Shown piece by piece: positions 22,869 to 39,068 of a stretch of DNA of 64,000 nt (its first letter is position 1; each line of letters starts with the position of its first letter). The stretch covers positions 1 through 64,000 of the forward strand of contig SEFA01000001.1 of assembly GCA_004210455.1 (NCBI GenBank), written 5' to 3'. The translations under genes were made by a program, and so were the position numbers. Source of the DNA: Rubrivivax sp. Lineage in GTDB: Bacteria; Pseudomonadota; Gammaproteobacteria; Burkholderiales; Burkholderiaceae_C. The notes under the pieces were generated by a model that had not been told where the DNA came from, did no database searches, and saw only the letters and a list, made by a program, of their open reading frames with translations.

Positions 22869-23879
22869 ATGAGCGAGCAGTCCCCCGCCACCCCCGCCTT
22901 CTCCCACACGACCGTGCTGCTGCACGAGACGGTGGACGGCGTCTTCACGACCCCCGACGGCCTGTACGTGGACGGCACCTTCGGGCGCGGCGGCCATTCG
23001 CGCCTGCTGCTGTCGCGGCTGGGGGAGAAAGGGCGGTTGATCGCCATCGACCGCGACCCCGAAGCGGTCGCGGCCGCGACGACCGGACCAACGCGGGTCG
23101 ACGACCCGCGTTTCCACATCTGCCACAGCGCGTTCGCCGACATGGCCGCGCAACTCGACGCGCTGGGCATCGCGCAGGTCGACGGCATCCTGCTGGACCT
23201 GGGCGTCTCCAGCCCTCAGATCGACAACCCGGAGCGCGGCTTCAGTTTCCGCTTCGACGGTCCCCTCGACATGCGCATGGACACGACGCGGGGCGAGAGC
23301 GCCGCGGAGTTCATCGCCCGCGCGGAGGTGGATCAACTCGCACAGGTGATCCGCGACTATGGTGAAGAACGGTTTGCTCTCCCGATTGCAAAGGCGCTTG
23401 TGGCTCGCCGGGAAGGCGGGCGCCCTGTTCTCACAACCGCCGAGCTTTCCCAGGTCGTGGCTGGTGCAGTCAAAACCCGCGAGCCGGGCAAGGACCCTTC
23501 GACGCGCACATTTCAGGCTCTACGGATATTCGTCAACGCCGAGCTTGAAGAGCTGCAGCAGGGGCTGAACGCGGCGCTGTCCAAGCTGAAGCCGGGCGGC
23601 CGGCTGGCGGTCATCAGCTTCCACTCCCTGGAAGACCGCATCGTCAAGAACTTCATCGCCGAGCACAGCAAGGAAGTGTTCGACCGCCGCGCCCCGTTCG
23701 CCGAGCCCAAGCCGCAGCCGCTGCGCGCCATCGCGCGCATCAAGCCGAGCGAGGCGGAGGTGTCGGCCAATCCGCGCGCGCGCTCGTCCATCCTGCGCAT
23801 GACTCGCGCCGCCTGTTCACCGAGCTCGACCGCGCGCAGACCGAGGGCCGCCGGCTCGAGGCCGACTACCAGAAGCTGA
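22869..23879 (+). CDS. rsmH: 16S rRNA m4C1402 methyltransferase, with aberrant C-terminus
   Basis: RsmH methylates N4 of C1402 in 16S rRNA. The SAM site ([38 protein letters not shown]) and the C-terminal [12 protein letters not shown] and [10 protein letters not shown] blocks are all present. The normal protein would end a few residues after [10 protein letters not shown]; here the frame continues for about 25 residues ([14 protein letters not shown] and on) that are ftsL sequence read in the wrong frame, giving 336 residues. The true 3' end therefore seems deleted together with the start of ftsL. The core is intact, so activity may survive. A stretch from about 23356 to 23545 has less GC-biased codons than its surroundings. 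Confidence 0.9.
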
Positions 23880-24076
23880 TGGCCGACCGCCAGGCGCAGG
23901 CGACCAACCTGCGCGTCGAGCAGGTCGCGCGCGAGCGGCTGAAGATGCGTCCGATCTCGCCGGCGATCACCTTCAATCCCGACGCGCCGGCGATCGAGGC
24001 GAGCGGCGTCCGCGGCCGCCCGCTGGCGAATGCGCAGGGGTCGGCGCAAGGGTCGGCGCAAGGAGCGGCCCGATGA
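23798..24076 (+). pseudogene. ftsL: Cell division protein FtsL lacking its N-terminus and membrane helix
   Basis: FtsL is a small bitopic protein that joins FtsB and FtsQ to activate FtsWI. In this frame one reads [40 protein letters not shown], then VARERLKMRPISP: the periplasmic coiled coil and conserved C-terminus of FtsL. The preceding cytoplasmic tail and transmembrane helix are absent: upstream codons are rsmH in another frame, with no in-frame ATG, GTG or TTG before ATG 23879. The sequence thus passes from rsmH directly into mid-ftsL. Since ftsL is normally essential, either the sequence is misassembled or a deletion has occurred. A Gln/Ala/Gly-rich tail with a tandem repeat ends the gene, and its stop overlaps the ftsI start (ATGA). 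Confidence 0.8.
24038..24061 (+). repeat. 12-bp tandem duplication in the ftsL tail
   Basis: GGGTCGGCGCAA occurs twice in direct succession, encoding the GSAQGSAQ part of the FtsL C-terminal tail. It keeps frame and lies beyond the conserved region. Confidence 0.85.
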
Positions 24077-25893
24077 TCGGCAAGCTGCGCAGGAAGCTGG
24101 GCAACAGCGCCCGCAACGCGTCTCGCAATGCCGCCAGAAACGGCGTGACGCGCGGCGTCAGCTATTCGAGCAGCCCGCTGCTGGCGTCGAAGACGCCGCC
24201 GTGGCGCTCGCGTTTCCTGGTCGCGCTGGTGGGGCTCGCCTTCACCGGCCTGCTGGCGCGCGCGGCCTACATCCAGCTGATTGGCGAGGACTTCTTCCAG
24301 CGTCAGGGCGAGGCCCGTTACGCCCACAAGATGGAGCTGCCCGCCAGCCGCGGCAAGATCAGCGACCGCGGCGGCCAGGTGCTCGCCGCCAGCGTCGCCG
24401 TGCCCTCGATCTGGGCCTTCCCGAAGGAAGTCGACACCGACCCCGACAAGCGCCGCCAGCTCGCGAAGCTGCTGGACATGTCGCGCGCGGAGCTCGACAA
24501 GCGCCTGGATCCGGCCAACCGCTTCGTCTTCCTGCGCCGTCAGGCGGACGACGAGACTGCGCGCAAGATCAAGGAACTCGGCCTCAAGGGCGTGTTCCAG
24601 GACCGCGAATACAAGCGCCAATATCCCGAAGGCGAAGCCGCCGCGCACATCGTGGGCTTCACCAACATCGAAGAGCAGGGCCAGGAAGGCATCGAGCTCG
24701 CGTTCCAGAAGGACCTGCAGGGCCGCGACGGGTCGCGCTCGGTCGTGCGCGACCGGCTGGGCCGCGTGGTCGAGGACATCGGCGAGCGCGTCCCCGAGAC
24801 CAACGGCAAGGACATCGAGCTGTCGATCGACGCCAAGGTCCAGTTCTTCGCCTACCAGCGCGTGCGCGACGCGGTGGCGGAGAACAAGGCCAAGGCGGGC
24901 TCGGTGGTGGTGCTGGACGCGCGCACCGGCGAGATCCTGGCGCTGGCCAACTTCCCCAGCTACGACCCCGGCCACCGGCAGAACCTGTCCGGCGAGCAGC
25001 TGCGCAACCGCGCGCTGACCGACGTGTTCGAGCCCGGCTCGACGATGAAGCCCTTCACCGCCGGCCTCGCGCTGGAGACCGGCCGCGTGCGCCCCGACAC
25101 GCTGCTCAGCACCGGTCCGCGCAGCGTGGTGATCTCGGGCTGGTCGCCGACCGACGCGCACCCGCACGGCGACCTGACCGTGCAGCAGGTGATCCAGAAG
25201 TCCAGCAACATCGGCGCGGCGCGGCTCGCGCTGATGATGCAGCCGCGCGAGATGCACGAGATGTTCACCGCGATCGGCCTGGGCCAGCGGCCGCAGATCG
25301 ACTTCCCCGGTGCGGTGACCGGCAAGCTGCGTCCGTGGAAGAGCTGGCGCCCGATCGAGCAGGCGACGATGAGCTACGGCTACGGGTTGTCCGCGTCGCT
25401 GCTGCAGCTGGCGCGCGCCTACACGGTCTTCGCGCGCGAGGGCGACATCATCCCGATCACGATGACCAAGCGTCCGGCCGACCAGCCGGTGAACGGCATC
25501 AAGGTCTTCAGCCCCAAGGTCGCCGCGGAGATCCGCGGGATGCTGCAGATGGCGGCCGGCCCCGGCGGCACCGCGCCGCAGGCGATGGTCCCGGGCTACA
25601 GCGTCGGCGGCAAGTCCGGCACGGCGCACAAGCAGGAAGGCAAGGGCTACGCGAGCCACAAATACCGTTCGTGGTTCGTGGGCATCGCGCCGATTTCCAA
25701 GCCGCGCATCATCGTGGCGGTGATGGTCGACGAGCCGAAGAACGGCCAGTACTTCGGCGGCGCGGTCGCGGGTCCGGTGTTCAGCCAGGTCGTGGCGCAG
25801 ACGCTCAGATTGCTGGGCGAGCCGCCGGACCTCGACGTCAAGCCGCAGATCGTGGCGCAGCAGCGGCTGCAAGCCGTCGACGAGAGTTTCTGA
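24073..25893 (+). CDS. ftsI: Septal peptidoglycan transpeptidase (PBP3)
   Basis: A 606-residue class B penicillin-binding protein that cross-links septal peptidoglycan with FtsW. A membrane helix (FLVALVGLAFTGLLARAAYI, about 51-70) precedes the pedestal domain. Catalytic motifs are intact: S-x-x-K in GSTMKPF (about 321-325), SSN in KSSNIGAAR (about 377) and KSGTA (about 514). An uncommonly Asn/Arg-rich cytoplasmic N-terminus (about 45 residues) is seen. Start overlaps the ftsL stop by 4 nt; murE follows after 13 nt. Confidence 0.96.
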   Translation: MIGKLRRKLGNSARNASRNAARNGVTRGVSYSSSPLLASKTPPWRSRFLVALVGLAFTGLLARAAYIQLIGEDFFQRQGEARYAHKMELPASRGKISDRGGQVLAASVAVPSIWAFPKEVDTDPDKRRQLAKLLDMSRAELDKRLDPANRFVFLRRQADDETARKIKELGLKGVFQDREYKRQYPEGEAAAHIVGFTNIEEQGQEGIELAFQKDLQGRDGSRSVVRDRLGRVVEDIGERVPETNGKDIELSIDAKVQFFAYQRVRDAVAENKAKAGSVVVLDARTGEILALANFPSYDPGHRQNLSGEQLRNRALTDVFEPGSTMKPFTAGLALETGRVRPDTLLSTGPRSVVISGWSPTDAHPHGDLTVQQVIQKSSNIGAARLALMMQPREMHEMFTAIGLGQRPQIDFPGAVTGKLRPWKSWRPIEQATMSYGYGLSASLLQLARAYTVFAREGDIIPITMTKRPADQPVNGIKVFSPKVAAEIRGMLQMAAGPGGTAPQAMVPGYSVGGKSGTAHKQEGKGYASHKYRSWFVGIAPISKPRIIVAVMVDEPKNGQYFGGAVAGPVFSQVVAQTLRLLGEPPDLDVKPQIVAQQRLQAVDESF

Positions 25894-37838: not shown

Positions 37839-39068
37839 ATGGCCAAGGAATACAAGGATTTGGTCGTCGGGTTGGACATCGGCACCGCCAAGATCATGGC
37901 GGTGGTGGCCGAGGTGATGGGCGACGGCCAATTGCGCATCGCCGGTCTGGGTGTCGCGCCCAGCCACGGTCTGAAGCGCGGTGTCGTGGTCAATATCGAT
38001 GCCACCGTCCAGTCCATCCAGCAGGCCCTGAAAGAGGCCGAAATGATGGCCGACTGCCGGATTTCGAGGGTTTATACCGGGATTACCGGCAGCCATATCC
38101 GCGGCCAGAACTCGACCGGGATGGTCATCGTGCGGGACAAGGAAGTCACGCCGGTGGATGTCGCCCGGGTGGTGGAAACCGCCAAGGCCATCAATATCCC
38201 GAACGACCAGCGCCTGCTGCTGGTCGAACCGCAGGAATTCGTGATCGACGGCCACGAGGTGAAAGAGCCGATCGGCATGAGCGGCGGCCGGCTGGAGGTC
38301 AAGGTCCATATCGTGACCGGCGCCCAGAGCGCGGCGGAAAACATCGTCAAGTGCGTGCGTCGCTGCGGGCTGGAGGTTGAGCAACTCGTTCTGAATCCTA
38401 GCGCTTCCAGTTTGGCAGCACTAACTTCGGACGAACGCGACCTGGGCGTGGCGCTGGTCGACATCGGCGCCGGCACGACCGACGTGGCGATTTTCACCGG
38501 CGGATCCATCCGCCATACCGCGGTGATTCCGATCGCCGGCGACCTGATTACCAGCGATATCGCGATGGCGCTGCGCACCCCGACCAAGGATGCCGAGGAA
38601 ATCAAGGTCGAGCACGGCGTGGCCAAGCAATTGCTGGCCGATCCGGCGGATCAGGTGGAGGTTCCGGGTTTGGGCGACCGGGCACCCCGCATGCTCTCCA
38701 AGCAGGCTTTGGCCGGGGTCATCGAACCTCGGGTCGAGGAAATCTTCTCGCTCGTCCACCAGGTCATCCGGGAATCCGGCTACGAAGAGCTGCTGTCCTC
38801 CGGAATCGTCCTGTCGGGCGGTTCCTCGGTGATGCCGGGGATGGTGGAACTGGCCGAGGATATTTTCCTGAAACCGGTACGGCGGGGAAATCCCACCTAC
38901 AACGGCGCGCTTTTTGACATGGTGGCCAATCCCCGTTCGGCCACCGTGATGGGATTGTTGGAGGAAGCGCGGCTGTCGCGCACCCGGGGATTCAAGGCGG
39001 CGCAGCAGGCGGGGTCCGTGAAGACCTTGTTCGGTCGCGCCAAGGATTGGTTCCTGGGGAATTTCTGA
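37839..39068 (+). CDS. ftsA: Cell division actin homologue FtsA
   Basis: A 409-residue ATPase tethering FtsZ to the membrane. ATP-site blocks VVGLDIGTAKIMAVVAE, VALVDIGAGTTDVAIF and GIVLSGGSSVMPGM are intact, and the C-terminal amphipathic helix (LFGRAKDWFLGNF) is the membrane anchor. ATG 37839 follows GAGGAC. Codon use is visibly less GC-biased than in the mur genes, most clearly around 38375-38435 (CTA, CCT, GTT, TTG codons). Confidence 0.97.
   Translation: MAKEYKDLVVGLDIGTAKIMAVVAEVMGDGQLRIAGLGVAPSHGLKRGVVVNIDATVQSIQQALKEAEMMADCRISRVYTGITGSHIRGQNSTGMVIVRDKEVTPVDVARVVETAKAINIPNDQRLLLVEPQEFVIDGHEVKEPIGMSGGRLEVKVHIVTGAQSAAENIVKCVRRCGLEVEQLVLNPSASSLAALTSDERDLGVALVDIGAGTTDVAIFTGGSIRHTAVIPIAGDLITSDIAMALRTPTKDAEEIKVEHGVAKQLLADPADQVEVPGLGDRAPRMLSKQALAGVIEPRVEEIFSLVHQVIRESGYEELLSSGIVLSGGSSVMPGMVELAEDIFLKPVRRGNPTYNGALFDMVANPRSATVMGLLEEARLSRTRGFKAAQQAGSVKTLFGRAKDWFLGNF

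Follow-up and report, generated by a model that had tools for sequence, protein, structure and literature searches.

The junction between rsmH and ftsL in this Rubrivivax genome raises the question of whether a bacterium can divide with an FtsL that has lost its start and its membrane helix, or whether the assembly misrepresents the locus. The window analyzed here is a stretch of 64,000 nucleotides, comprising positions 1–64000 of contig C30 (176,634 bp) in a draft genome (G000) of 6.33 Mb that consists of 189 contigs and is rated 100% complete with 0.69% contamination. The original prediction for this locus allowed for two outcomes, an assembly artefact or a rare rearrangement that cell division tolerates. 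The features on which the question turns are given in Table 1.

Table 1. Features at the rsmH, ftsL and ftsI boundaries, in window coordinates
Feature	Coordinates	Strand	Description
rsmH	22869..23879	+	336 codons (336 aa); normal up to ...SSILRM, own tail and stop lost
Deletion junction	23798 (rsmH side)/23799 (ftsL side)		Placed by alignment with congeners; 150 bp absent relative to the five nearest
ftsL remnant	23799..24076	+	Encodes the periplasmic coiled coil and the C-terminus; start, cytoplasmic tail and helix missing
TGATG	23877..23881	+	Stop that now ends rsmH; overlaps ATG 23879, the first in the ftsL frame; re-initiation would be possible
ftsI	24073..25893	+	Intact; ATG 24073 overlaps the ftsL stop by ATGA

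Structure of the rsmH–ftsL junction

The methyltransferase domain of RsmH is complete (PF01795, Methyltransf_5; 328.2 bits, residues 11–313, model positions 2–307 of 309). Past ...SSILRM the rsmH frame continues through 25 residues of ftsL sequence, read out of frame, until the stop at 23877–23879, in agreement with the predicted loss of the normal end and addition of about 25 wrong-frame residues. The RsmH tails of congeners differ from that of the window and end in GGRR or similar. Because rsmH reads the remnant out of frame and terminates within it, a direct RsmH-FtsL fusion, which had been put forward as one form of a tolerated rearrangement, is excluded. The TGATG at the new stop derives from the codons CTG ATG and has the same letters in five aligned congeners, and is therefore not evidence of selection for re-initiation.

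The FtsL part is encoded in one frame, beginning with DSRRLF (codon at 23801) and closed by the stop that ends at 24076; the expected coiled coil, C-terminus and normal ATGA overlap with ftsI are all in place. This frame is open upstream as far as a TGA at 23546, and between that stop and 23879 it contains no ATG, GTG or TTG, the only candidates being CTG at 23813 and 23876. From its first ATG the open reading frame (23879–24076) has 65 codons. None of the + strand frames of 23600–24076 encodes a membrane helix, the maximum 19-residue hydropathy being 0.79, whereas seven congeners score 1.71–2.00; a value of 1.46 occurs on the - strand, but in an unrelated frame. The frame scan and the hydropathy values bear out the prediction that no cytoplasmic tail or helix lies upstream and that no ATG, GTG or TTG precedes 23879. 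The Pfam FtsL model (PF04999) matches the remnant with 40.2 bits (cut-off 22.9), over model positions 31–90 of 97 only. Compared with the FtsL family, the remnant thus has the coiled-coil and C-terminal match and the position between rsmH and ftsI, and lacks the cytoplasmic tail, the transmembrane helix and a start of its own ahead of the helix.

Over 72 codons the remnant differs from congener G005 by 10 synonymous and 1 non-synonymous changes, and from congener G008 by 7 synonymous and 3 non-synonymous changes. To judge from these substitutions it is undecayed and conserved like a working gene. Near the 3' end of ftsL (24038–24061) the 12-mer GGGTCGGCGCAA occurs twice in tandem, giving a longer FtsL C-terminus (GSAQGSAQG); this tandem is absent from five aligned congeners.

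The five nearest congeners (G005, G008, G006, G010 and G013) hold exactly 150 bp that alignment shows to be absent from the window, while the difference from a sixth, G002, is 159 bp. Both the size and the placement at 23798/23799 fall within the original prediction of roughly 100–150 bp missing at about 23795–23805. Read from the congeners, the lost segment contained the RsmH tail and stop followed by the start, cytoplasmic tail and membrane helix of FtsL. In G005, GTGGCC comes directly after the last kept rsmH base, and on the other side of the segment the first kept ftsL base is the A of TATGAC. Judged on this nearest relative, which serves as a proxy for the strain's own lost bases, the join is blunt with zero bases in common; because of the proxy, some microhomology at the join is conceivable. 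No direct repeat stands in register at both breakpoints, the longest common word within 30 bp of both breaks being 8 bp and out of register. The suggestion of a loss between short repeats was accordingly not upheld, and a repeat-mediated assembly collapse was rejected on the same two observations. Hairpin dropout was likewise rejected, since the 150-bp segment of G005 shows no excess of folding stability over shuffled sequence (z-score +2.12; of 200 shuffles, 196 were as stable or more so).

Relatives, second copies and division partners

A helix-bearing FtsL was found in all 29 of the other loci compared, 15 of them from the same genus. In each of the 15 other genomes of the genus the FtsL query was matched from residue 1–3. 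The match in G000 begins at query residue 18, and alignment places the start of real similarity at residue 26. Congeners G005 and G008 share with the window the gene order, the RsmH body, the FtsL coiled coil and C-terminus and the ATGA overlap with ftsI. However, they retain the 150 bp carrying the RsmH tail and stop and the FtsL start, tail and helix. Alignment of rsmH–ftsL with relatives had been proposed as a check at the outset, and close relatives do carry an intact FtsL across the gap.

In a sample of the wider family, 385 of 399 genomes gave an FtsL match. Among the family matches listed, all but that of G000 start at query residue 1–4, and weak matches with a missing start could sit among the remainder. 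Seven of the 14 family genomes that gave no FtsL match were searched with PF04999, which returned two weak matches and none above the cut-off. When six of these seven were searched with RsmH, four gave no match and in two the gene was cut at a contig end, which points to an ftsL locus that is unassembled rather than lost in those six genomes. Two incomplete family drafts, G344 and G347, resemble the genome of the window in that ftsL is missing from the assembly, yet in both rsmH itself ends at a contig end, whereas in the window the contig is continuous and only 150 bp are gone. In another family member, G048 (1 contig, 94% complete), neither FtsL nor RsmH was found, and its division cluster may be incomplete or divergent.

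Within G000, the only match to PF04999 is the remnant in the window, although this is a weak model that matched in just 2 of 14 control genomes. Searches of the G000 proteins with congener FtsL gave no other convincing match (best other E = 0.127). Congener DNA spanning the gap matched only the two flanks and 36 bp on contig C126, and the lost piece did not turn up elsewhere; the 36-bp match (89% identity) was dismissed as the lost piece and read as chance similarity over a hydrophobic stretch. FtsB (DivIC family) is present in one copy. The second ftsL that the original prediction proposed to look for was thus not found with PF04999, congener FtsL or congener DNA. With neither a second ftsL nor a stray segment, a real loss would need outright tolerance.

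Substitutions were assessed by counting departures of G000 at alignment columns that do not vary among the other 15 members of the genus. There were no unusual substitutions in FtsI (0/452 columns), FtsW (0/322), FtsA (0/389) or FtsZ (0/352), none in the FtsL remnant (0/41) and one in FtsQ (1/144; A139V, alignment numbering). Nine other genes were compared, of which MurC had two unusual changes, MraZ and RsmH one each and the remaining six none.

Assembly quality around the break

Contig C30 contains no N bases over its 176.6 kb. A DNA-level scan of G000 against G005, covering 130,032 bp on C30 and 27,577 bp on C55 (157.6 kb, counting alignments 1,500 columns or longer), identified 24 indels of at least 20 bp. 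Two of these are clean, in that the 60 columns on either side are 90% or more identical: the rsmH–ftsL deletion and, at C30:126296, an insertion of 33 bp. The insertion lies outside the window and its length is a multiple of three. The rsmH–ftsL deletion is the sole clean gene-breaking indel of at least 20 bp in the 157.6 kb compared with G005, and can therefore be regarded as isolated.

A gene screen was also carried out, in which 89 G005 genes matched at 80% identity or more on C30, as called by a crude gene finder, were checked for stops and for interrupted reading frames. In G000 this picked out four genes (B5, B8, B82 and B87). B8 is a 107-residue open reading frame with a stop at residue 18, while the three that were inspected, B5, B82 and B87, proved to have over-extended starts and were discounted as broken genes. 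The reverse screen against G005 flagged eight G000 genes besides rsmH (A1, A2, A43, A48, A59, A63, A73 and A83), and the three inspected, A48, A59 and A83, were discounted as upstream extensions. Only the reverse screen caught the rsmH–ftsL event (A18, 50-codon gap). Because the forward screen missed it, that screen is a weak control, and the DNA-level scan is the better test. Generally poor assembly as the cause of the break is not borne out by the DNA scan and the gene screen.

The two contig ends that were tested consist of single-copy sequence without overlap, so that at least there repeats do not explain the breaks in the draft. A dispersed element about 50 bp long, located in G005 at L138:8140-8195 (G005:C31), has matches at approximately 82–98% identity on many G000 contigs, often in close inverted pairs such as G000:C102:37962-38021 (+) with 38039-38088 (-). 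It resembles a REP-type palindromic family.

FtsL function and the origin of the short form

In the available text of a study of E. coli (PMC7733951), FtsL is described as essential, and FtsL without residues 1–30 does not complement. Any one of several changes restores function to this truncated FtsL: two activating mutations in FtsL, extra FtsN, extra FtsI, activated FtsW or, to a weak degree, extra FtsW. According to the same text, FtsL bearing the cytoplasmic part and helix of MalF fails to complement, activating mutations notwithstanding, unless an FtsW-FtsK fusion with an activating mutation is present as well (PMC7733951). These constructs resemble the remnant in that the cytoplasmic part or FtsL's own helix is gone. 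However, as described in that text they are still membrane-anchored and neither complements unaided (PMC7733951), whereas the remnant in the window is without any anchor. For S. aureus, the available text of PMC11988411 describes FtsL as essential, yet its N-terminal region as dispensable. Since the E. coli truncations and helix swaps fail in the portion of PMC7733951 available, a fragment without helix or start should, by analogy, be unable to support division (septal wall synthesis).

We consider it probable that the fragmented 189-contig draft contains a false join here, or has taken up a molecule that was chimeric or a minor variant. The cause of the blunt 150-bp loss across the rsmH–ftsL boundary would then be technical, and the 150-bp deletion is most likely absent from living, dividing cells. 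A technical cause is the most economical because the cells could otherwise be viable only if they managed without an essential helix, while the genes compared show no sign of compensation. As the close relatives compared all keep the 150 bp, an artefact is also likelier than anchor-less division. The short form is a singleton (15 of 15 others are full-length), there is no spare ftsL, and the remnant is undecayed, all of which favor an artefact together with the lack of compensation, the failure of the MalF helix swap in E. coli and a fragmented draft whose two tested contig ends are single-copy. Set against this, the surrounding assembly is clean, the G005 counterpart of the lost segment has no unusually stable fold, and there is no direct repeat, the usual cause of false assembly collapse. 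Of the two outcomes first envisaged, the artefact fits better, and a tolerated loss fits worse given that neither a spare ftsL nor compensation was found.

The absence of repeats and the good surrounding assembly leave a real, if clearly minor, chance that a true deletion arose very recently in all or part of the sequenced culture, accompanied by an unlinked suppressor or with intact copies mixed in. The event is blunt and isolated in otherwise clean sequence, the rest of the division cluster is intact, and an undecayed remnant is compatible with such recency. However, the available texts describe FtsL as essential both in E. coli and in S. aureus (PMC7733951, PMC11988411), the remnant has neither helix nor start, and FtsI, FtsW, FtsA and FtsZ show no suppressor-like change, FtsQ having the one unusual change A139V. 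Were the deletion real, RsmH would be expected to work, with its domain kept and its tail changed. Ribosomes stopping at the TGA at 23877–23879 could restart at ATG 23879, which would make a 65-residue cytoplasmic fragment and keep the coupling into ftsI.

A stable loss, with cell division in this lineage relying on an FtsL fragment that has no membrane anchor or dispensing with FtsL altogether, appears improbable. It takes the assembly as it stands, a single genome with no spare copy, but the remnant is undecayed, no compensating changes were seen in the genes compared, and the E. coli helix is not simply replaceable in the available text of PMC7733951. We would give equally little credence to a natural bypass of FtsL, in which FtsQ-FtsB-FtsW-FtsI would be active without the FtsL helix and tail owing to a suppressor outside FtsI, FtsW, FtsA and FtsZ. 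Scarcely credible is a full FtsL encoded by an additional gene, completed from a different contig or made by a frameshift that fuses it to RsmH, since, although a remote substitute for so short and divergent a protein could escape searches (PF04999 matched 2 of 14 controls), congener FtsL and DNA gave only the E = 0.127 and 36-bp C126 matches in G000, and a fusion would still be without a helix in any + strand frame of 23600–24076.

On the likeliest reading, that of a technical artefact, the locus offers a caution only, that an essential gene can be cleanly but falsely interrupted in a draft rated 100% complete. A real and fixed deletion would mean that the helix and cytoplasmic recruitment arm of FtsL are dispensable in nature; laboratory E. 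coli, as far as the available text of PMC7733951 describes, tolerates such a loss only with several other changes. Were a bypass true, a bacterium with a 6.3 Mb genome would be dividing with a membrane-less FtsL fragment, and an essential divisome subunit would have been bypassed naturally.
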